The position numbers and the translations under genes were made by a program. Shown here piece by piece: positions 34,200 to 45,204 of a DNA stretch of 64,000 nucleotides (the first letter of the stretch is position 1; each line of letters begins with the position of its first letter). Origin of the DNA: an uncultured Brachyspira sp. (GTDB taxonomy: Bacteria; Spirochaetota; Brachyspiria; Brachyspirales; Brachyspiraceae); the NCBI RefSeq assembly GCF_944390845.1, contig NZ_CALXRM010000006.1, forward strand, positions 1-64,000, in the 5' to 3' direction. The notes beneath the pieces were generated by a model. It saw nothing but the letters and a program-made list of their open reading frames with translations. It was not told the DNA's origin and made no database searches.

Positions 34200-35381
34200 A
34201 TGATAAAAAATATTATTGCTATTATATTCTTCTTATCCTTATTAATTTCATGTTCCGACAATGAAGCAAATAAAAAAGAAGAAGAAAAAATTCCTGAGCC
34301 GCCTGAAAGTATTAAATTGGTATTTACTGGTGATATAATGACTCACCCTACTATAGTTAAGGCTTTTGAAAGTAATGATGTTTTAATAGATTTAAAAGAT
34401 TACTTTCAAGGAGACATTGTATTTGCCAATTTAGAATTTGTTGTTAATACCAATAAACCTCCTATGCCTTATCCTGAATTTAATGGTTCATTGGATTATT
34501 TAAAATATTTTTTCAATTATTTTAATACATTTTCTATTGCCAATAACCATGCCTATGACCAAGGGGCTCAAGCAGAATCAGAAACGGTTGCTGAGCTTCA
34601 TAGAAATAATAAATTAACTTTAGGAGGTTCTACTAATTCTCCTAGCATAGCTCCTATCATAACAAATATTAACAATGTGCCTCTTTTCATATCAGCATAT
34701 ACAATGCTTGATAATGGATTAAGTCATAAAACAAATAAAAATGATCATTTCTATTTTATGAATTTTTTCCCTAAACAAGAAGATTTAATAGAAAAAGTAA
34801 AATCAGATTTGGCACTTGCTACAAACAATGAAATAAAAATAATATCTCTTCATTTCGGATTAGAATATACAACTGCTCCTGAAGAAAAAACAAAAGAAAC
34901 TGCAAGAGCTTTAATAGAAAATGGAGTTGACATAATAGTAGGACATCACCCGCATGTTCCTAGACCTGTAGAAATATATGAAGGTACAAATCATAGCGGC
35001 ATAATAATATATTCTTTAGGAAATTTTATAGCAAACCACAAAGGAAGATATCCTTATCTTGATATAGGTACTGTTGTTTCATTAGAAATTAATGAAAATA
35101 AAGAAATTAATTTTTCTTATGTGCCAACTTATTATGCATTCTTCAAGAAAAGCGGATTTGATTTTGTTATGAAGCCTATCAAAGAAGATCCTAATATAAA
35201 TATGCCTACTCTATCAAGCAATCATATTTATAGTGCTTATGATACCAATGCGATAAAAAAAGGTTATGAACTTATACATAATTTTTACTCTCCTCTAACG
35301 AATGAAAAAGTAAAAACTATGTTTGCTGATAATATAACTAATAACAGCATTGTATCTAATAATAGTTTAGCTCATAGATAA
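34200..35381 (+). CDS. CapA family (poly-gamma-glutamate capsule-type) lipoprotein
   Basis: A lipoprotein signal ends LLISC (C18), followed by a CapA/PgsA metallophosphatase-fold domain: LVFTGDIMTHPTIVKAF, GDIVFANLEFVV, SIANNHAYDQGAQA, ISLHFGLEYTTAPEEKT and DIIVGHHPHVPRPVEIYEG. The metal-binding Asp, Asn and His positions of the calcineurin-like fold are kept. In Bacillus this family helps make or attach poly-gamma-glutamate, but most members stand alone with unknown polymer targets, as here (no pgsB/C nearby). It ends the operon that begins at 31527. Confidence 0.9.
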   Translation: MIKNIIAIIFFLSLLISCSDNEANKKEEEKIPEPPESIKLVFTGDIMTHPTIVKAFESNDVLIDLKDYFQGDIVFANLEFVVNTNKPPMPYPEFNGSLDYLKYFFNYFNTFSIANNHAYDQGAQAESETVAELHRNNKLTLGGSTNSPSIAPIITNINNVPLFISAYTMLDNGLSHKTNKNDHFYFMNFFPKQEDLIEKVKSDLALATNNEIKIISLHFGLEYTTAPEEKTKETARALIENGVDIIVGHHPHVPRPVEIYEGTNHSGIIIYSLGNFIANHKGRYPYLDIGTVVSLEINENKEINFSYVPTYYAFFKKSGFDFVMKPIKEDPNINMPTLSSNHIYSAYDTNAIKKGYELIHNFYSPLTNEKVKTMFADNITNNSIVSNNSLAHR

Positions 35382-35701
35382 TTTATAATACTATAGAAAA
35401 TACAAATAGCTTCATTAACGCACGGTAAATAAAATTATATTTACTTATTAGATTATAATTCAAAACAATCATATATAAAAAAATTTTATTCTGCGTGCGT
35501 TGTATAGATTATAAATTTAAACTAAATTTGGGTGGGTGTTTTTAAATTCTAATTAAAATAATAAAAAATAAGAAAAACATAAATTCAAAACTAAATTAAC
35601 AAATCTAAAGGGCGGGCAATGAAAATAAGTTTTAAAACTTTATTTACATACCATGCCATTTAGTACTTGCAATAATGATTATGTTATAATAAAAATATAA
35701 A
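35382..35701. other. Non-coding region between CapA gene and RiPP operon
   Basis: No gene is seen. AACGCAC (35419) and GTGCGTT (35497) are inverted copies about 70 bp apart. Two G-rich tracts, GGGTGGGTG (35531) and GGGCGGGCA (35611), stand out in otherwise A/T-rich DNA. An imperfect hairpin AAATAAGTTTT/AAAACTTTATTT (about 35625-35650) may terminate both converging operons. These could mark an old recombination junction, but that is a guess. Confidence 0.5.
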
Positions 35702-38700
35702 TTAATCTATTAAAATAGTATTAGTTTCACTCAATATTTTTATATACTTATCTAAAAGACTTCTAATTTTTTTATCATTAACTGAATCAATATTTTTTAT
35801 ATATAAATACGTACCATATAAATTATTTCTTAAATAAGATATAAATAATAATAATGTTTTATCTATATCCTTAATAGATGATACATTGGTATTAAAACTA
35901 TATTTATTAAAACCAAATTCCAACATAACATCAATAACACTAATAATATTATCTAAATATATATTTGTAATTTTTTTATTTTTTATTAATTTAGATAATT
36001 CTTCAAAATTTAAATTTATAAAATCACTAAAACTAATTTTATCTAATAATTTATAATCTAAATAATCCTTATCAATTAATTTTCCTTCACACAAAGTACA
36101 TTCAACATTTTTTCTGCTTGATTTGATATTGTTAATAAGGTTTTCATCTGGAAAATATTTACCCTGTGTAATTAATAATGGTATTATTCCCTGCCAGTAT
36201 ACATTTTTTCCATCTATTTTAAATACTTTCGAAAAATCACCGTATAGAAGTAAATACTTATCTTCATCTGACATTTTATCAAAATCTTTATCTATTTCAT
36301 TATTATATATCTTTTTTAATTGTTTTACAGCTTCAGAATAATTTGAAATCTCTTTTAGAAATTTTAAAATAGACTTATTTAAAATATTCTTATCAAATAT
36401 TAAATTTAAATCTATCTCATCAACACTGCCGCTACCATAACATAATTTACATTTACCAACTTTACTATCGACATCAAAAACATTCAATAATAAATTTCTA
36501 TTATCTCTATTTTCAGAAAATGCTAAAGATATCATATCTTTAATATTAAGTAAATCTATAATTGAAGATGATTTTAAATATCTATTTTTAATATTATTAA
36601 AATCTATTATATTTATAATAGGTAAATATGTTTCATTTTCATAAATTTCATCATTGTGCTCATAATTAGGAAAAATAGAACTAATATATTCTGTATTTGA
36701 ATATTTAGCTAATTTTTCAAACAGATTAGTATTATTTATTTTATTAATATCAAATTCATTAATCTTAGTTTCAAATATAATTTTTTGATTATTTACTTGT
36801 TTTATATTATCTATTTTTTTATTTTCATTTTTAATTTTACTCTTATTTTTTACAGCAATAGTTGTAGGAGTATCACAATTTAAAAAATCATCTAATTTAC
36901 CGCAATAAAGCAAATATCCTCCATCATCTCCTGCTTTAGGCCCTATTTCAATAATATAATCTGTTTGCAAAATAAAATCTAAATTATGTTCTACATTTAT
37001 TATTGTATTATTATTTTTTTGTATATCTCTCAACATTTCAAGTAATACTCTAATATCTTTATTATGTAAACCGCTTGTAGGTTCGTCTAATACTATAATA
37101 TTATTTTTTAACTCATTAGAGAAAATATGAACAAGTTTTAAACGTTGATATTCACCTTTGGATAAACTAGAAGCACTTCTATTTAATGTTAAATGTCCTA
37201 TTCCTATTTCAATGCATTTTTTAAAAATATTATTAAAAGTTTTATTATCCGATAAAATATCATATAATTCAATAATTGAAAAATTTAACAAATCATCTAT
37301 ATTATAACCTTTATATTTATATTTTAATGTTTCATCATCAAATCTTTTACCTAAACATTTAGGACACATACCTAAATATTCATTATAAACACTTTTTATA
37401 ATTCCATTTCCATTACATAAAGTGCATTTTCCTTTATTTGAATTTAAAGAAAATATTACACTGTCTGTTTTTGAAAGCCCAAAAAGATTAGAAATTAATT
37501 CTGTTAATTCTAAAATAGAACATACATTTGAATTACTTGATCTTGCATATAATGATTGTGATAGATAAAATATTGAAGTATTTTTTTTATTTATATTATT
37601 ATTTTCGCAAAATGGAATTAGATGATTCTTTATAAAACTGGATTTTCCGCTTCCTGATACACCGCATACAGCAGTTAAAGAATATAAAGGTATATCCACA
37701 TTAAAATTTTTTAAGTTGTTAGAATTACAATTACTAATTTTAAGCATTTTATCTGACAATATATTATATTTATTTTTATCATTATCAATAATACTGCTAT
37801 TCTCTTTTAAGTATAATACTGTTGGAGTTTTATATTTATCTATATTGTATATATAGTCTTGAAATAATAAATTACCGCCATATTTTCCAGCACCCTCACC
37901 TATATCTATAATATAATCACAAAATGTCAATATATCTTTATTATGCTCTATTATAATTATAGTATTTCCTTTTTCCTTAATTTTATTAAACAAATTTATT
38001 AAATCCTTTATATCAGATGAATGCAAGCCTGATGTTGGTTCATCTAATATAATCATACTATTAGATATAGATAATGATATATAAGAACATAATCTTATCC
38101 TTTGAACTTCTCCTCCGCTCAAAGTTTTGCTTAATCTATTCAAATTGAGATATCCGCATGACATCATATTATATATATTTAAATTATTTTTTAAAATTTT
38201 TAATTCTGTAGTTAGACTATTGTCATTTGACAATTCTATCATATTGCTTATAACATTATATAATTGATTAATTGATAATTTTAATAAATCTCCAATAGAA
38301 TAATCAAATAATTTTATATTAAATACAATATTATCAATTCTAGTGCCGTTACAAGAACTGCAAATCTTTTTTTCTATTAGAGGTTCAATATATTTTAATC
38401 CTTTTCCTTTCAAATAACCTTCTATTAAAGAATTAACAATACCATTAAAATTCAGTACATATTCTATACCTCTTACTTTATATTTTATAATATCATTTCC
38501 GCCGTAAAATAATAAATGTTTCTGATTATCATCTAAATTTGAGAATTTAGCTTTAGAGGTAAATCCGTAATGTTTTGCAAATATTTCTATATCCTGTACA
38601 GTAGTATTTGAATATTGTACTCCTTTGTCACTTACAAATTTAATAGCACCTGATATAATAGATTTATTTTCATCATTCAATAATTTTAAATAATCTATAG

Positions 38701-39508
38701 TTATTTCTTCACCGCTTCCACTACATTTACGGCAAGCACCTCCGCCATTATTAAAATCAATATTAAATGAAAATCTTTTATGCAATTTTCTTTCAATTAT
38801 ACTATTACATGAACTGCATATAGTATGAGTTTTTGGATTAATAGCAGAATACAACTTAGGTATATCAATAAGCACTTCTAAATTCAATTTATTATAAATA
38901 TTTTTTATTATATTTTTAATATTTTTACTTGGCTTATCTAATAATATAGTAATATATCTTGCTGTCTTTTTATTCTTAGTTTCTTTCTTATCCTTATTAA
39001 AATATTTCAATTCTTTTATTTTAATAATTTCATTTATAGAATTAAAACATTCATCTATATTATCAGCCATTTCCATTTCTATTAATAAATTAAAATCATA
39101 ATTTTCTATTACAGTAAAAATATCATCATTAACCTTATTACCGCAATTACAGCAATACAAATCTGCATATTCAACAAATATATTTCTCAAATTCTTTAAT
39201 ATTCCTGAAATTGTACCTAATGTAGAATTTCTATTATTTATAGAATTTTTTACTTCTATCCATATAGCAGGAGGATTATTATTTATGCTTGCCACATCTG
39301 TTACATTATCATCTATTAATTCATTTCTTAAAGACTTATTTTTATTTATTAAAAATTCTTTATATGAATATTGAGCTATTATATCTCTAGCCAATGTAGT
39401 TTTACCGCTTCCTGATACACCTGTAATAGCTATTATTTTATTTAAAGGAATGTCAATTGATATATTATTCAAATTATTTTTTCTAGCATTATTAACTTTT
39501 ATACACAT
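35702..39508 (-). CDS. UvrA-like ABC protein with a third, degenerate UvrA half-module
   Basis: The 1268-residue protein has both UvrA ATPase cassettes. Walker A1 is GVSGSGKTT (30-38), with LSGGE (463-467) and ILDEPTSGLH (487-496). Walker A2 is GVSGSGKSS (616-624), with LSKGE (782-786) and VLDEPTSGLH (806-815). Zinc pairs are C231/C234 with C259/C262, C383/C386, and C695/C698 with C715/C718. Uniquely, residues about 910-1268 look like a third UvrA half-module: CKLCYGSG (C1020/C1023), ECTLCEG (C1137/C1140) and a collapsed signature/Walker B end, with no Walker A. Canonical UvrA has about 940 residues. It ends the RiPP operon, 17 bp after the methyltransferase. A role in immunity or DNA binding is inferred, not standard excision repair. 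Confidence 0.85.
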   Translation of the reverse strand: MCIKVNNARKNNLNNISIDIPLNKIIAITGVSGSGKTTLARDIIAQYSYKEFLINKNKSLRNELIDDNVTDVASINNNPPAIWIEVKNSINNRNSTLGTISGILKNLRNIFVEYADLYCCNCGNKVNDDIFTVIENYDFNLLIEMEMADNIDECFNSINEIIKIKELKYFNKDKKETKNKKTARYITILLDKPSKNIKNIIKNIYNKLNLEVLIDIPKLYSAINPKTHTICSSCNSIIERKLHKRFSFNIDFNNGGGACRKCSGSGEEITIDYLKLLNDENKSIISGAIKFVSDKGVQYSNTTVQDIEIFAKHYGFTSKAKFSNLDDNQKHLLFYGGNDIIKYKVRGIEYVLNFNGIVNSLIEGYLKGKGLKYIEPLIEKKICSSCNGTRIDNIVFNIKLFDYSIGDLLKLSINQLYNVISNMIELSNDNSLTTELKILKNNLNIYNMMSCGYLNLNRLSKTLSGGEVQRIRLCSYISLSISNSMIILDEPTSGLHSSDIKDLINLFNKIKEKGNTIIIIEHNKDILTFCDYIIDIGEGAGKYGGNLLFQDYIYNIDKYKTPTVLYLKENSSIIDNDKNKYNILSDKMLKISNCNSNNLKNFNVDIPLYSLTAVCGVSGSGKSSFIKNHLIPFCENNNINKKNTSIFYLSQSLYARSSNSNVCSILELTELISNLFGLSKTDSVIFSLNSNKGKCTLCNGNGIIKSVYNEYLGMCPKCLGKRFDDETLKYKYKGYNIDDLLNFSIIELYDILSDNKTFNNIFKKCIEIGIGHLTLNRSASSLSKGEYQRLKLVHIFSNELKNNIIVLDEPTSGLHNKDIRVLLEMLRDIQKNNNTIINVEHNLDFILQTDYIIEIGPKAGDDGGYLLYCGKLDDFLNCDTPTTIAVKNKSKIKNENKKIDNIKQVNNQKIIFETKINEFDINKINNTNLFEKLAKYSNTEYISSIFPNYEHNDEIYENETYLPIINIIDFNNIKNRYLKSSSIIDLLNIKDMISLAFSENRDNRNLLLNVFDVDSKVGKCKLCYGSGSVDEIDLNLIFDKNILNKSILKFLKEISNYSEAVKQLKKIYNNEIDKDFDKMSDEDKYLLLYGDFSKVFKIDGKNVYWQGIIPLLITQGKYFPDENLINNIKSSRKNVECTLCEGKLIDKDYLDYKLLDKISFSDFINLNFEELSKLIKNKKITNIYLDNIISVIDVMLEFGFNKYSFNTNVSSIKDIDKTLLLFISYLRNNLYGTYLYIKNIDSVNDKKIRSLLDKYIKILSETNTILID

Positions 39509-39525
39509 AATAATCTCCTGCCTGA

Positions 39526-40263
39526 CTATTGATTTTGATAATTCTTTTCTAATACCAAAATATATGAATCTACAAAATCATCTTTAGGTATTCCAACATC
39601 TTTTAATATAATTTTATCTTTTATAAGATAAACTATATTATAAAAAAACTTATTAGACAAATTAATAATATAATCAAATATATCTTTATATAGATCAATA
39701 AATATAACTATAATTTTAGAATCATCATATAATAATTCATTTGATTTAATAAAAATATTAGTAAGCAAATCATTATTATTTTTATCTTTACAACTATTAG
39801 TTAAATATTCAAAGTCTTTAGGACTAATTTTAGAGTTTAAAACATCATTAATATTTATTTTATAATCTAATATCTCTACATCAAGAGGGGGATTGGTTAC
39901 TATAAAATTATACTTTGATTCAAAACTATATGTTGAAAAATCATTTCTAATAATATTTATAGAATTATTAAATCCATATTTATCAATATTTTTTTTCATT
40001 AAATTACATGCTATGCCATTAATCTCTATACCATCAATTTTATATCCACTATCAGCCAAAAATATACTTATAGGACCAACTCCGCATCCAACATCTAAAC
40101 CATAACCATTAATATAATTTAAAGATTTTAATTCATCAAAATGTTTACAAAATAGTTCAGCTATTCCAAATTTATTACAAACTAAATCATTAACAAATAA
40201 TTCATAATTTTTATCTTTGCATTTTAAAATAGATATAAATTCATTATTAATTTTATTTTGCAT
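39526..40263 (-). CDS. Class I SAM-dependent methyltransferase, HemK-like
   Basis: A 245-residue Rossmann-fold methyltransferase. Motif I is LDVGCGVGP (56-64), the acidic ribose-binding residue is in IDGIEINGIAC, and motif IV is NPPL (124-127). NPPY/NPPL motifs mark enzymes that methylate nitrogen of Gln, Asn, adenine or guanine. It overlaps the preceding radical SAM gene by 11 nt and lies 17 bp before the UvrA-like gene, so it belongs to the RiPP operon. I infer that it modifies the peptide (side-chain nitrogen or terminus), but DNA or RNA methylation is not excluded. Confidence 0.82.
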   Translation of the reverse strand: MQNKINNEFISILKCKDKNYELFVNDLVCNKFGIAELFCKHFDELKSLNYINGYGLDVGCGVGPISIFLADSGYKIDGIEINGIACNLMKKNIDKYGFNNSINIIRNDFSTYSFESKYNFIVTNPPLDVEILDYKININDVLNSKISPKDFEYLTNSCKDKNNNDLLTNIFIKSNELLYDDSKIIVIFIDLYKDIFDYIINLSNKFFYNIVYLIKDKIILKDVGIPKDDFVDSYILVLEKNYQNQ

Positions 40264-41155
40264 TTACAGCCCTTGATACTAATGACAAAAACTCTAATTT
40301 ATTCTCTTTCCATACACCATTACATATATCATTAAAAATACAATCATTACAAAAATCAGCTTTAAATCTCATACCGCAATTAACTTGATTATAATCGAAA
40401 ATATTTTCTTCTTTACTGTTAAATAAATCTATCTCTGAAGGCCAATAACTTTCTCCTACACATTTTTCTATACCACGCATCAAACAGTACGGAATTCCCT
40501 CAGTGCGTAAAATATCATGAGAAATATAATTTTTTATAGAATGTATAGCTTTAACTGTTTCTAAAAGTCCTACCGCATATTCATTATCATTTTCAATATG
40601 CATAACAGAGAACTGCATTATAGAAGGTCTAAAAGGAATAACTATATCAATAATACTTTTTAATTCATTTATGTTTAAAGAAGAAACAACGGTATTTGTA
40701 TATATATTAGCATTAGTATACAATGATATATTATCAATAGACTTCATTAATCTATAAAAAGAATCACTATTTCCTGTAGCTTTATTATGTGTATCAGCAG
40801 AAGCACCAAGTATAGAAAATGATATAGAAAAATTATAATTATCTGATATAGTTTTTATTGATTTAAATAATTCAGAATTAATATCTATAAGACCATAACC
40901 ATTACTCTGAATTATAATTTTTTTATATCCAATTTCAACAGCATAATTTAATATAGAAATTAATTTTTCCTCATCGTATGTTGGTTCTCCTCCGGAAAGG
41001 ATAATTGATTTACATCCTCTATTATATCCATCAAAAACAGCATCTTTTAATTCTTCTAAACTTATATTAATATTTTTATAACTATTTGAAAAACAATAAC
41101 TGCATTTATTACAGCATTGATATGTAACTTTAATATTTAGGCAATGCATAATCAA
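40253..41155 (-). CDS. Radical SAM enzyme with C-terminal cysteine cluster
   Basis: A 300-residue radical SAM protein. The cluster motif CX3CX2C is C14/C18/C21 (CCNKCSYC), with GGEP at 55-58. A C-terminal group C260-x8-C269-x2-C272-x5-C278 (NCGMRFKADFCNDCIFNDIC) could hold an auxiliary Fe-S cluster of Twitch/SPASM kind. It overlaps the upstream radical SAM gene by 26 nt and the downstream methyltransferase by 11 nt, so the genes are tightly coupled. It probably installs a second modification on the 50-residue precursor, or acts in partnership with the first enzyme. The reaction is not predictable. Confidence 0.85.
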   Translation of the reverse strand: MIMHCLNIKVTYQCCNKCSYCFSNSYKNINISLEELKDAVFDGYNRGCKSIILSGGEPTYDEEKLISILNYAVEIGYKKIIIQSNGYGLIDINSELFKSIKTISDNYNFSISFSILGASADTHNKATGNSDSFYRLMKSIDNISLYTNANIYTNTVVSSLNINELKSIIDIVIPFRPSIMQFSVMHIENDNEYAVGLLETVKAIHSIKNYISHDILRTEGIPYCLMRGIEKCVGESYWPSEIDLFNSKEENIFDYNQVNCGMRFKADFCNDCIFNDICNGVWKENKLEFLSLVSRAVNAK

Positions 41156-42293
41156 CTACTCTTTTCATATAGCAAATCAATTGATGTTTTGCTGCACAAT
41201 ACTCTGAAAATAAATTTTCTGATTTTTTTAAGAATATATCTCTATAAGCTATACAGCCGCCATGACATATATTATTGATATCACATTTACTGCAAGCTGT
41301 ATGTATTTGATTATAAAAATTTTCATATTGAGGATATTTTTTAGAAGAAATAAATTCTTTCAATTCATCGTCTGTAACATTTTCTAAATTGCAGATATAT
41401 GCTTTATCTCTTTGTATATCATGTTCAAAGGAATCGCAAAACCATAATTCTTTATTAGGAAACAATGTCAAAAAATTATTACATTTATCCTCTCTATATT
41501 CACACCAAGTAACCAAAGTACCTGTTATAGAAGCTATAATACTAGCTATAGGATCTATAACAAATTTTTTATATAAATCTTTATTTTTTCCAATATCTTT
41601 AATCCATAAATCAAAAATATCTATCATAAATTTAGAATATTCAAGAGGTCTTATACCATCTTTTTCAACTTCTCCATAATTATTAAAATTATAACATGGA
41701 ATAAATTTAACAAAATGAGGCTGTATACTTCTTAAAAAAGTATAAATTTCATTGGCATATTTTAAATTATGGTTACCTACAACTGTTATAGTTGTAATTT
41801 TTATATCAGTTTTTTTTAATAAATTAATAGCATTAAAGACATTATCAAATGAACTTTTATTATTTTTAGTCAATCTTGCTTTATCATTGACTATTTTATC
41901 ACCATCTATACTTATACTTATGATTCTTTCACTAAATATATCTTGATATTTTGAAAATAATTCTATCCATTCATCGTCTATTAATGAGCCATTAGTTTGC
42001 AAGGCTACATTAAATAATACATTATATTTAGAATTGACTTCTACTAATTTGGAACAAAATTCATCAAAAAATTTCTTACCTTTTAATAAAGGCTCTCCGC
42101 CATGAAGCATCCATAAAATTTCAGAATCAGGGAACAAAATTGCAAACTTTTCAATAAGCCCGCATAAAAATTCTATTGACATAGAGGTTAAATTCAAATC
42201 TTCATATTCATCTCTTTTAAACTCATAACAATAAGAACATCTTAAATTACAATCTAAAGTAGTTTTTAAAACTATGGTTTTTATTAACCCCAT
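41130..42293 (-). CDS. Radical SAM/SPASM peptide maturase
   Basis: A 387-residue enzyme with CX3CX2C at C15/C19/C22 (CNLRCSYC), LHGGEPLL (63-70) and a full SPASM domain: C264, C271, C286, then C334/C337/C343/C347 (CSKCDINNICHGGC) and C366. This layout occurs in anaerobic sulfatase-maturase-like and RiPP maturases (for example FxsB-type cyclophane-forming enzymes). It starts 8 bp after the precursor stop codon with no clear Shine-Dalgarno, suggesting coupled translation. The neighbour and the aromatic-X-Asn/Lys core argue for peptide crosslinking rather than sulfatase activation; no sulfatase is nearby. Confidence 0.88.
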   Translation of the reverse strand: MGLIKTIVLKTTLDCNLRCSYCYEFKRDEYEDLNLTSMSIEFLCGLIEKFAILFPDSEILWMLHGGEPLLKGKKFFDEFCSKLVEVNSKYNVLFNVALQTNGSLIDDEWIELFSKYQDIFSERIISISIDGDKIVNDKARLTKNNKSSFDNVFNAINLLKKTDIKITTITVVGNHNLKYANEIYTFLRSIQPHFVKFIPCYNFNNYGEVEKDGIRPLEYSKFMIDIFDLWIKDIGKNKDLYKKFVIDPIASIIASITGTLVTWCEYREDKCNNFLTLFPNKELWFCDSFEHDIQRDKAYICNLENVTDDELKEFISSKKYPQYENFYNQIHTACSKCDINNICHGGCIAYRDIFLKKSENLFSEYCAAKHQLICYMKRVVDYALPKY

Positions 42294-42301
42294 AAAATTT
42301 A

Positions 42302-42454
42302 TTAATAACCTTTATTATATTTAGCGTAATTACCCCAGCATGCAAGCTCACTTCTAGTTTCATCATTCTTTATAGTTTCTATAAAAGAGGCTAATGCTGC
42401 TATCTCTTCCTTTGAATATTTTTCATTGATTACAACATTATCAATATCATTCAT
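42302..42454 (-). CDS. Putative RiPP precursor peptide, 50 residues
   Basis: Translation of the minus strand gives a peptide starting MNDIDNVVINEKYS and ending SELACWGNYAKYNKGY. The first 38 residues are acidic and helix-prone (leader-like). The last 12 (C39-Y50) form a distinct core: W40-G-N42, Y43-A-K45 and Y46-N-K48 are three consecutive aromatic-X-Asn/Lys triplets, with a Cys in front. A GGAGG site (revcomp of CCTCC at 42461-42465) lies 6 nt before the ATG, below a good promoter. It directly precedes two radical SAM genes. The gene is too short for default gene calling and is easily missed. Coding potential is strong; the RiPP role is inferred. Confidence 0.8.
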   Translation of the reverse strand: MNDIDNVVINEKYSKEEIAALASFIETIKNDETRSELACWGNYAKYNKGY

Positions 42455-42477
42455 ATTTATCCTCCAGACATTCTATG

Positions 42478-42505
42478 ATTATAACATATAGGTATATTAT
42501 TACAA
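42478..42505 (-). promoter_or_regulatory. Promoter of the RiPP operon
   Basis: On the minus strand TTGTAA (42500-42505) is followed by 16 nt and a perfect TATAAT (42478-42483). It predicts an approximately 17-nt leader containing the GGAGG site of the precursor gene. Confidence 0.65.
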
Positions 42506-42551
42506 GCCATAAAAGCAAAAATATATTTTATTTTTTAAGCATATAAACATT

Positions 42552-42597
42552 AAATGTAATCTAAATATTATAATTAAATAATATTTAGATTACATTT
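42552..42597. promoter_or_regulatory. Perfect 19-bp palindrome between divergent promoters
   Basis: Arms 42552-42570 (AAATGTAATCTAAATATTA) and 42579-42597 are exact inverted copies around TAATTAAA. The site lies between the RiPP promoter and the JAMM-DinG promoter, about 47 bp from the former's -35 and 27 bp from the latter's. It could be a regulator-binding site or a cruciform. A terminator role is possible (T-run follows) but no gene reads into it. Confidence 0.6.
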
Positions 42598-42623
42598 TTA
42601 TATAAATAATAATTTTTTAATTA

Positions 42624-42652
42624 TTGACAAAGATTTCGATATATACTATATT
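42624..42652 (+). promoter_or_regulatory. Promoter of the JAMM-DinG gene (near-leaderless)
   Basis: A perfect TTGACA (42624-42629), 17-nt spacer and TATATT (42647-42652) place the start site at about 42659, only a few nucleotides before the ATG at 42664. No Shine-Dalgarno fits between them. Confidence 0.65.
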
Positions 42653-42663
42653 ATTATACTAAT

Positions 42664-45204
42664 ATGAGTAATAATTATGCAAGAGAAATAGACAGCGTAT
42701 TTTCCATAGACGCAATTAATTTTATGAGAAAGTCGATAGTAGACGCTTATGGAAATGAAGTATATTTTGGAATAAATTTTAATGCTTATGGTATACTTGA
42801 TTATATAGAAGTAATGGCAAGAGGAAATAAAGACTCTGTACCTGCAATTATATCATTATCATTAGAATTTGATGCTGTAATTCATAATCACCCATCTGGA
42901 CAGCTTACACCTTCAAGAGCCGATTTAGCAATAGCAAGCGAACTTGGAAATAATGCAGGAGTTGGATTCTATATAGTAAATAATGATGTTGATGAATATT
43001 ATGAAGTTGTAAAGCCTATAAAATCAGAAAATGTAAAAACAATAGATACTCCAGATGCTTTATATATGTTTACTGAAAATGGAACATTAAGTAAATTATT
43101 AAAAAAATATGAATACAGACAGGAACAAACAGAACTTGTAGAAGCCACAATAGAAGCATTCAACAATAATAAACATTTAATATCAGAAGCTGGTACAGGT
43201 ATTGGAAAATCTTTTGCATATTTAGTACCTGCCCTTTTATGGCTTAAAGAAAATAAAACCAGAATAGTAATATCTACTAATACAATAAATTTACAAGAAC
43301 AAATAATTTCAAAAGATATACCATCTATTATAGGCGGAATTGCTCCTAGTGTAAAATACGCTTTAGTTAAGGGACGCAATAATTATGTATGCATTAAAAA
43401 AGTAAAAGAAGCTTTAAACGATGCAGACAGATTTGATTTTGAAGAACAGGTACATTTTTTTGAAGATATAAATAATTGGCTTAATGTAACTAAAGACGGA
43501 TCAATCACAGATTTAGGATACAAACCTAAAGGCGAATTATGGGAAATGGTTTGCTGTGATACAGATACCTGCACACATAGAAAATGTGAATATTTAGAAG
43601 ACTGCTATTTTTATAAGATGCGTAAACAATTAAATGCTGCTCAATTATTGATAGTCAATCACCATATACTTTGTGCAGATTTATCTTTATATGCTGAAAC
43701 TGCTGGAAGATATAGTCTTCTTCCTAGATACACAAAAGTTTTAATTGATGAGGCACATAATTTCGAGAATTCTGCTTCCAGTTACTTTGGTGATGAAGGA
43801 AGTAAAAACGGTATACTAAAAGCACTTTTCTATATTTCAAGAATAAAAAAGAATAAAAGACTTGGGGTTATAGAAAGCATTAATATTATGCTTAATGAAA
43901 AAAAAGCATTAATTGAAAAATCAGAATATGATGAAATAATAGATTTAATAAATAAAGCACATGATTATACAGCAAGATTAAAAAATGTTGTAGATGATAA
44001 ATCAAAAGAATTTATTAATTATTGTCATAAAAACATACAAACAAAAGAAGGATTGGGCTACAAATTTAGAATAAGTCCTGAACTTGTTAGTACAGCTCAT
44101 TGGAAAAATGACGGGTTAAAACCTCTCAGAGAAATGGTATTATCAATGACTTCGCTTGTAAATACTTGCGATAAATTATATAAAAAGTTTTTTGATATTG
44201 CTATAGAAAAAGACTTTGATTATGAAGAAATAGCACAGATGTCAAATGCCTATTTAGAAAGATTAAAAAGACAATTAGTATCATTAAATGCTGCAATAGA
44301 TTATAAAAAAGATGAATATATAAGATGGATAGAAACAAGACTAACTAAAAAAGGAAGTCTTATACTTAATTGGCATTTAACACCTGTTACAGTTGCAAAA
44401 AATTTGAATGACTATTTATATTCAAGATTTGATACTGTTGCAATGTACTCAGCAACTTTAACAGTTTCAAAAAGTTTTAATTTCTTTTCTAATAGATTAG
44501 GTTTTGATTTTATAGAAAAAAATAAAAAAATAGAAATATATTTGGAATCTCCATTCAATTATGAAGATAATGCAAGGCTTTATATTGCAACAGATATGCC
44601 TGATGTAGCAAGCGATACATTTAATGACTTCACATCAAAAATATTATTAGATGTATGCGATATCACTGGAGGCAGAGCATTTATATTATTCACTTCATTT
44701 TCATCTCTAATGAGCGTTTATGAAAATACATCTGAAAAATTAAAAAAGAAAAATATAAATGCATTAGCACAAACAGCATCAGTACATAGACATACATTAT
44801 TGGATATGTTCAAATCTTCTTCAAACAATGTACTTTATGGGGTTGATTCATTCTGGGAAGGTGTGGACGTTGCAGGAAAAAATTTAGAAGTTGTTATAAT
44901 ACCTAAATTACCATTTGCAGTACCAACAGATCCTATAAGTGAAGGAAGATACAGATTCATTGAAGAAAATGGCGGCAATGCATTTTTAGATTATGCCCTA
45001 CCTTTTGCAGTTATAAAATTCAAACAAGGATTCGGAAGACTTATAAGAAGCAAAGATGACAGAGGTGTTGTATTTGTTCTCGACAGAAGATTATATACCA
45101 AAAATTACGGAATTCAATTCATTCAATCACTTCCTAATGCTACACTATTAAGAGGAAGCATGAAAGAAATATTTAAAGATATGAATAATTTTTTTGATTA
45201 TTAA
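42664..45204 (+). CDS. DinG/XPD-type helicase fused to an N-terminal JAMM (RadC-like) domain
   Basis: Residues 1-120 carry a JAB/MPN fold with the metalloprotease pattern H74-x-H76-PSG...D87 (IHNHPSGQLTPSRAD) and E32 as candidate catalytic Glu, as in RadC-like proteins. A superfamily 2 Fe-S helicase follows: Walker A AGTGIGKS (176-183), cluster cysteines C243 and candidates among C297-C314, DEAH (362-365), and the motif VI region QGFGRLIRS. DinG unwinds 5'-tailed duplexes and R-loops. The 846-residue fusion suggests nuclease or isopeptidase-like processing coupled to unwinding, which is inference. It is divergent from the RiPP operon and followed by a GNAT gene after 11 bp. Confidence 0.9.
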   Translation: MSNNYAREIDSVFSIDAINFMRKSIVDAYGNEVYFGINFNAYGILDYIEVMARGNKDSVPAIISLSLEFDAVIHNHPSGQLTPSRADLAIASELGNNAGVGFYIVNNDVDEYYEVVKPIKSENVKTIDTPDALYMFTENGTLSKLLKKYEYRQEQTELVEATIEAFNNNKHLISEAGTGIGKSFAYLVPALLWLKENKTRIVISTNTINLQEQIISKDIPSIIGGIAPSVKYALVKGRNNYVCIKKVKEALNDADRFDFEEQVHFFEDINNWLNVTKDGSITDLGYKPKGELWEMVCCDTDTCTHRKCEYLEDCYFYKMRKQLNAAQLLIVNHHILCADLSLYAETAGRYSLLPRYTKVLIDEAHNFENSASSYFGDEGSKNGILKALFYISRIKKNKRLGVIESINIMLNEKKALIEKSEYDEIIDLINKAHDYTARLKNVVDDKSKEFINYCHKNIQTKEGLGYKFRISPELVSTAHWKNDGLKPLREMVLSMTSLVNTCDKLYKKFFDIAIEKDFDYEEIAQMSNAYLERLKRQLVSLNAAIDYKKDEYIRWIETRLTKKGSLILNWHLTPVTVAKNLNDYLYSRFDTVAMYSATLTVSKSFNFFSNRLGFDFIEKNKKIEIYLESPFNYEDNARLYIATDMPDVASDTFNDFTSKILLDVCDITGGRAFILFTSFSSLMSVYENTSEKLKKKNINALAQTASVHRHTLLDMFKSSSNNVLYGVDSFWEGVDVAGKNLEVVIIPKLPFAVPTDPISEGRYRFIEENGGNAFLDYALPFAVIKFKQGFGRLIRSKDDRGVVFVLDRRLYTKNYGIQFIQSLPNATLLRGSMKEIFKDMNNFFDY

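Follow-up and report, generated by a model that had tools for sequence, protein, structure and literature searches.

Self-resistance by UvrA-like proteins had previously been described for polyketides and non-ribosomal peptides that bind DNA. Clusters of DNA-binding antibiotics are described as being marked by UvrA-like genes (PMC10413001), and PMC10192343 reports for Ecm16 that its insertion domain is needed for DNA binding and discrimination and that it has no UvrB-binding domain. Here we describe a UvrA-like protein of 1268 amino acids (aa), referred to as P0001, encoded in a 64,000-nucleotide stretch of an uncultured Brachyspira sp. (NZ_CALXRM010000006.1, positions 1 to 64,000; this whole stretch is called the window). 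Its gene is the last of a five-gene operon for a ribosomally synthesized and post-translationally modified peptide (RiPP), preceded by a precursor, two radical S-adenosylmethionine (rSAM) enzymes and a methyltransferase. Like Ecm16, DrrC and UvrA2, P0001 has the UvrA fold, two ATP-binding cassettes (ABC), an insertion domain and no recognisable UvrB-binding domain, and like Ecm16 and DrrC it is encoded with a biosynthetic cluster (peptide or polyketide). It differs from the latter two by its dead third module and by an insert of unrecognised type that holds both zinc-1 cysteine pairs; further, the partners of P0001 and of the other RiPP-associated UvrA-like proteins are RiPP maturases. The features of P0001 are:

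35702-39508, minus strand: UvrA-like protein P0001, 1268 aa (TIGR00630, 536.1 bits; PDB 3pih)
36842-39508, minus strand: two intact ABC cassettes, residues 1-889 (motifs and hidden Markov model (HMM) domains)
38414-38689, minus strand: DNA-binding insertion domain of cassette 1, residues 274-365 (PF17755, above cut-off)
35705-36490, minus strand: third, dead module resembling the first nucleotide-binding domain (NBD-I) of UvrA, residues 1007-1268 (HMM, motifs, predicted structure, Pfam)

The TIGR00630 score lies under the curated cut-off of 729.8 for canonical UvrA, and PDB 3pih matches residues 4-874 (E 1e-106). An earlier note, made from the sequence of this DNA alone, had read two complete UvrA cassettes in the protein, and their motifs bear this out: Walker A at residues 30 and 616, the signatures LSGGE at 463 and LSKGE at 782, Walker B at 486 and 805, and the H-loop EHN at 521 and 840. 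A UvrB-binding domain was matched neither in P0001 nor in its residues 100-250 by our own model, which detects every one of 10 canonical or tandem UvrA sequences at E<=5.5e-10 (six of these ten were rows of the model).

The C-terminal ~260 residues of P0001 are homologous to UvrA NBD-I. With an HMM built from 13 Spirochaetota UvrA NBD-I halves, a whole-protein search aligned residues 1007-1184 to model positions 271-457 (independent E-value, iE, 2.2e-17), a span that begins at the second zinc pair, takes in the insertion domain and reaches into the signature domain. Residues 890-1268 searched alone gave an iE of 3.3e-18, the best of 100 shuffles reaching 0.0045. The earlier note had described about 360 extra residues repeating the UvrA pattern; the pattern stands and the region aligns with UvrA rather than with an unrelated domain, while the homology to NBD-I is narrowed to about 260 residues (1007-1268). 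By BLASTP, P0001 from residue 896 onwards matched its own N-terminal part (E=1e-6), the UvrA of the genus (E=1.4e-5) and a second extended protein, from genome G009 (E=5e-10). The third module keeps its zinc CxxC pairs, at residues 1020 and 1137, and part of the DNA-binding insertion, and has lost Walker A, signature, Walker B and H-loop, in agreement with the catalytically dead half-module without Walker A that had been proposed. The sequence VSSIK at residue 1209 occupies the expected place of the signature, and the chain terminates, as judged by eye, at the expected place of the H-loop. A Pfam match to UvrA_DNA-bind in this module (E=0.016) falls below the cut-off. An AlphaFold model of P0001 has a mean predicted local distance difference test (pLDDT) score of 64 and a predicted template modelling (pTM) score of 0.55, with residues 1139-1268 at 75 or higher in each ten-residue block, and all 39 of its PDB fold matches at E<=0.001 are UvrA; since UvrA rows were present in the alignment used for the prediction and biased the model, these matches are supportive rather than independent. 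The module is best read as the NBD-I-like remains of a second UvrA copy.

Across 26 genomes of the genus, a gene comparable to that of P0001 is present in G009 alone. The G009 protein has 1050 aa and two cassettes, in which the HMM did not see an insertion domain, and a third module that shares 27% identity with that of P0001 over 253 residues (E=5e-10; HMM iE 2.4e-14), followed by remains of a fourth module (E=1.6e-5 to NBD-II). Genes for rSAM enzymes flank it on both sides, and one of these enzymes is related to the 300-aa rSAM enzyme of the window (27%, E=6e-24); the extended form was thus seen only beside rSAM genes (two of two cases), a point that the earlier note had proposed to survey. 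The G009 locus (L037:3531-14565) contains several rSAM genes, two of them frame-broken, and looks partly decayed. It also contains a candidate precursor of 44 aa (L037:3531-3665); a likeness between its leader and that of the window precursor was not significant, with 470 of 2000 shuffles as good.

P0001 is accompanied in its genome by another UvrA:

L039:3908-9721 (G000:C1:63907-69720): housekeeping tandem UvrA of the genus, four intact ABC modules

This tandem protein has 1938 aa, with four Walker A and four signature motifs. A tandem frame of at least 1861 aa is found in 18 of the 26 genomes of the genus, and one of ~1935-1950 aa in three genomes of the same family. As the genome also has uvrB (1018 bits; cut-off 750), the P0001 gene is not the housekeeping uvrA, and the earlier note's alternative of a sole uvrA found without RiPP genes does not apply. 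P0001 resembles the tandem UvrA of the chlamydial type (PRK00635) in repeating UvrA modules within one chain, but it reaches only 358 bits against that model's cut-off of 3054 and its second copy is decayed.

The other four genes of the operon, which are probably co-transcribed with that of P0001, are:

42302-42454, minus strand: candidate RiPP precursor, 50 aa, core ACWGNYAKYNKGY (ggagg Shine-Dalgarno, first gene of the operon)
41130-42293, minus strand: radical SAM/SPASM peptide maturase, 387 aa (Radical_SAM, 2.4e-15)
40253-41155, minus strand: second radical SAM enzyme, HxsC-like, 300 aa (Radical_SAM, 3.6e-13)
39526-40263, minus strand: small methyltransferase, 245 aa (MTS domain, 8.4e-13)

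The RiPP operon proposed by the earlier note has thereby gained a precursor candidate directly upstream of the maturase genes. Its frame stops 8 bases before the start of the 387-aa rSAM gene; no NCBIfam model matched it. The core reads WGN-YAK-YNK, i.e., three consecutive aromatic-x-Asn/Lys triplets. Counted with [WFYH]x[NKRDQ], which is looser than aromatic-x-Asn/Lys, the triple motif is confined to the candidate precursor among the window's 507 small open reading frames (ORFs); shuffling the precursor peptide 200,000 times reproduced it 270 times. Related SPASM enzymes are reported to make three-residue cyclophanes, with i to i+2 crosslinks at Trp-Asn and at Tyr (PMC11002830). The system resembles triceptides (YhhB, XncB) in its core of three triplets and in a SPASM rSAM enzyme related to YhhB, DynA and FxsB, and differs in its UvrA-like partner, its second, HxsC-like rSAM enzyme and its family scores. 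The best NCBIfam scores of the 387-aa enzyme are all below cut-off (TIGR03942 213 bits, DynA 157, YhhB 157, FxsB 124), and none of the cut-offs of cyclophane-forming families is reached (YhhB 156.5 of 445, FxsB 123.6 of 370, XyeB 116 of 450); the 300-aa enzyme also stays below the cut-off for TIGR03977 HxsC, with 58.5 bits. Because of these scores a triceptide-like product is only a prediction, in which the Tyr-x-Lys sites of the precursor would also be crosslinked.

The operon occupies a variable site (window 35381-42664) between a capsule-type gene and a dinG-like gene. The distance between the flanking genes is 72-137 bp in six genomes, 512 bp in two and 7.28 kb here, and genome G007 has other genes at this place.

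Short UvrA-like proteins are encoded next to enzymes of four other RiPP chemistries. Genome G266 has two Cys-rich small ORFs, an rSAM gene and a UvrA-like gene of 716 aa, and G160 has the same layout, in which the maturase (719.5 bits; cut-off 400) and the precursor (61.8 bits; cut-off 45) exceed the curated cut-offs of the FibroRumin models (TIGR04135/TIGR04136) and the UvrA-like gene follows the maturase; the precursor and rSAM enzymes of the window, in contrast, are not FibroRumin. In G152 the order is rSAM, methyltransferase, UvrA-like gene, and in G220 an MvdC-like ATP-grasp gene (its MvdC match below cut-off) lies near the UvrA-like gene. Similarly, plasmids of Acinetobacter johnsonii and Moraxella osloensis carry a small Cys-rich ORF, two ThiF genes and a UvrA-like gene:

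L104:5154-9749: ThiF operon on the Acinetobacter plasmid, beside BREX
L105:3550-8154: ThiF operon on the Moraxella plasmid, near insertion sequences

We then searched genome contigs, blind to gene neighbourhood, with an alignment of three of the RiPP-associated UvrA-like proteins. This yielded 37 loci, namely 30 close relatives, which apart from the query itself show 47-80% identity, and seven distant ones. A RiPP enzyme is adjacent in 28 of the 30 close relatives (rSAM in 26, ATP-grasp in two) and in none of the seven distant loci; the two relatives without one are a locus cut at a contig end (L188) and a fragment (L191). When L163 and L184, which are G266 and G220 again, are excluded, the count becomes 26 of 28. 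In 26 of the 30, the enzyme is accompanied by a small, Cys-rich ORF that has a ribosome-binding site. Among controls, none of the 16 judged Spirochaetota UvrA2 or ~840-aa relatives has an rSAM, ThiF or ATP-grasp reference match nearby; neighbours were called by BLASTP with a brief set of references (rSAM, ThiF, ATP-grasp, methyltransferase, RelA), which other RiPP enzymes could escape. The 20 loci gathered for this comparison comprised these 16, the three RiPP loci of G160, G152 and G220, and one unjudged locus (L145 of G058) whose gene runs off the contig; the second copy of G093 (L097) was left out. In two control loci the surroundings include a CX3CX2C protein ~3 kb away (L149) and a methyltransferase two genes away (L148). 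Annotation likewise gives no rSAM, ThiF or ATP-grasp gene at any of four plasmid UvrA2 loci.

The occurrence of UvrA-like genes beside several unrelated RiPP maturases strengthens the RiPP link that the earlier note had drawn for the window, and it suggests a shared role as partner or protector. Among the papers listed by our literature searches and judged by title and abstract (subscription papers and database notes being outside their scope), we found no description of UvrA-like proteins as RiPP partners and no paper on FibroRumin. None of the 30 relatives has a third module, as no ORF exceeds 719 aa; since most RiPP-associated UvrA-like proteins are without it, the module appears to be an embellishment rather than the core of the association. 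The DNA-binding insertion (PF17755) is above cut-off in all three short clade members tested.

Four of the rSAM loci (L176, L177, L178 and L194) have a different rSAM enzyme and a different type of precursor. This second rSAM family, with repeat precursors of the GCGCTGNCGQSCSGG type (L176:5553-5747 and the other three loci), stands beside the same UvrA-like clade. FibroRumin loci (L143:6142-6466 and others) usually have two different Cys-rich precursors adjacent to each other, one of the CTGCMCNCRCSC and one of the CACVACNSCTCACSC type, and both often end in acidic-Trp tails. Directly after the UvrA-like gene of G160 (L143:10285-11238) is a gene for a RelA/SpoT-domain protein that matches a candidate phage-defence model.

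A tree of 31 rows places all seven RiPP-associated proteins, including those of the window and G009, on one side of a branch with support of 96/95. In a 39-row tree, which left out G009 and two ~840-aa rows, the short RiPP-associated proteins form a group at 100/99, and a UvrA2 group of 10 closes at 100/100 without P0001. Ecm16 and DrrC were themselves absent from the rows; the closest solved structure to the one UvrA2 tested is Ecm16 (7sh1, 1e-207). The short proteins form their own clade, with P0001 near it and not clearly inside.

Relatives of the extended form were sought more widely. Of 392 Spirochaetota genomes searched with the third module, 73 matched, including the window's own gene; by frame length (mostly 930-980 or ~1940 aa) and position the other matches look like other UvrA genes, six having been examined individually, and the search is not fully sensitive, as it missed G009. 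A scan of genome contigs with a two-row alignment of the third module found no relatives, which leaves the survey outside Spirochaetota weak. No relatives were found by viral-contig scans with P0001 and each of the two rSAM proteins, and none of 51 records from a phage search with P0001 covers 80% of the query. A plasmid search with the third module gave no matches but distant ones to UvrA (E no better than 1e-3), one of which led to the ThiF loci. A plasmid search with the 387-aa rSAM enzyme gave 263 records; at the three followed no UvrA-like gene is annotated, and at one of them an ATP-binding cassette gene adjoins.

Our preferred reading, which we hold tentatively, is that P0001 is a peptide-dedicated UvrA-like ATPase acting in the manner of Ecm16 and DrrC, with the third module as a single-chain stand-in for a dimer. 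The product of the operon would be a small peptide crosslinked by radical SAM chemistry, which probably contains as many as three aromatic-x-Asn/Lys cyclophanes, and P0001 would be the ATP-driven DNA-binding protein dedicated to this peptide, recognising DNA that carries the mature peptide and using ATP to clear or guard that DNA without UvrB. The third module would derive from a tandem UvrA whose second copy has decayed; having lost ATP binding, the module may provide a second DNA-binding insertion and a zinc platform in the same chain, so that the extended chain could replace the UvrA dimer. The intact ATPases, the insertion domain, the lack of a detectable UvrB-binding domain, and the separate uvrA and uvrB support this reading. 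As UvrA-like proteins stand beside different maturases, they probably serve the product rather than one chemistry; the feature shared among these products should then be their action, which we infer to be most simply on DNA.

Several points weigh against this reading. At the usual place of the UvrB-binding domain P0001 has, unlike Ecm16, a 110-residue stretch with both zinc-1 CxxC pairs (residues 119 and 231). The UvrA2 of the Ecm16 kind form a clade separate from the short RiPP-associated proteins, and in the 39-row tree P0001 falls just outside the 100/99 group of the latter, joining that side at only 86/79 on a long branch; with branches this long its place is unsure. FibroRumin-type precursors, with their acidic tails and many Cys, do not resemble intercalators, and no exporter, as expected for a secreted toxin, was seen in the window operon. 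The product, target and phenotype of the peptide are themselves putative.

As exporters are mostly not seen, the main rival is an intracellular effector pair, in which the matured peptide would remain in the cell and serve the UvrA-like ATPase as ligand or cofactor, both acting on foreign DNA (phage or plasmid) as mobile, defence-type cargo. In 23 of the 30 relatives, no ORF within 5 kb is predicted to have at least three membrane segments, although several loci are cut by contig ends. The BREX genes adjoining the Acinetobacter plasmid locus, an AAA_21 ATPase and a RloB-like gene (the latter by eye) in G266, the RelA/SpoT-domain gene of G160, relaxase- and recombinase-like neighbours (by eye) in some loci, and the variable site filled by the window operon are all consistent with such cargo. 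However, the neighbours in the window are housekeeping-like (the capsule-type protein and, by eye, the dinG-like helicase) and no known defence system matches. Membership in MADS was rejected: P0001 scores 173 bits against mad3, whereas one canonical UvrA scores 332 and one UvrA2 247, so that the match is generic. We consider an effector pair possible but unlikely.

Somewhat less likely still is a biosynthetic accessory role, in which the UvrA-like ATPase would bind or remodel the precursor or the maturase and so take part in making the peptide. Such a role would fit the rSAM gene ending at most ~154 bp before the UvrA-like gene, or overlapping it, in the listed rSAM loci. On the other hand, the same clade goes with rSAM, ThiF and ATP-grasp enzymes of different chemistry, and it keeps its DNA-binding insertion in the three short members tested. 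Finally, that P0001 arose by an ordinary, recent duplication of the UvrA of its genus and lies beside rSAM genes by chance is very improbable: UvrA paralogues are common and all 16 judged control loci are free of nearby RiPP reference matches, but derivation of P0001 from the halves of the genus's tandem UvrA, i.e., a grouping with them, is rejected (approximately unbiased test, p-AU 0.0017), the extended protein of G009 is also beside rSAM genes, and the wider association holds at 28 of 30 loci.

A broader proposal, which we regard as speculative and would not expect to hold in full, is that these loci represent widespread, self-contained RiPP modules made up of a precursor, a maturase and a UvrA-like ATPase, usually with no exporter. 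Chemically different peptides would share the UvrA-like partner, the peptide would be an intracellular DNA-acting ligand, and the ATPase of this genus would be a single-chain dimer whose dead half still serves as a DNA-binding arm.

With a UvrA-like clade that accompanies several RiPP chemistries, genomes can be mined for peptides with a possible action on DNA, and a target is predicted for systems that are otherwise orphans, FibroRumin among them. In the extended form of Brachyspira, nature provides a case in which to test whether a single chain, its second half dead, can take the place of a UvrA dimer.

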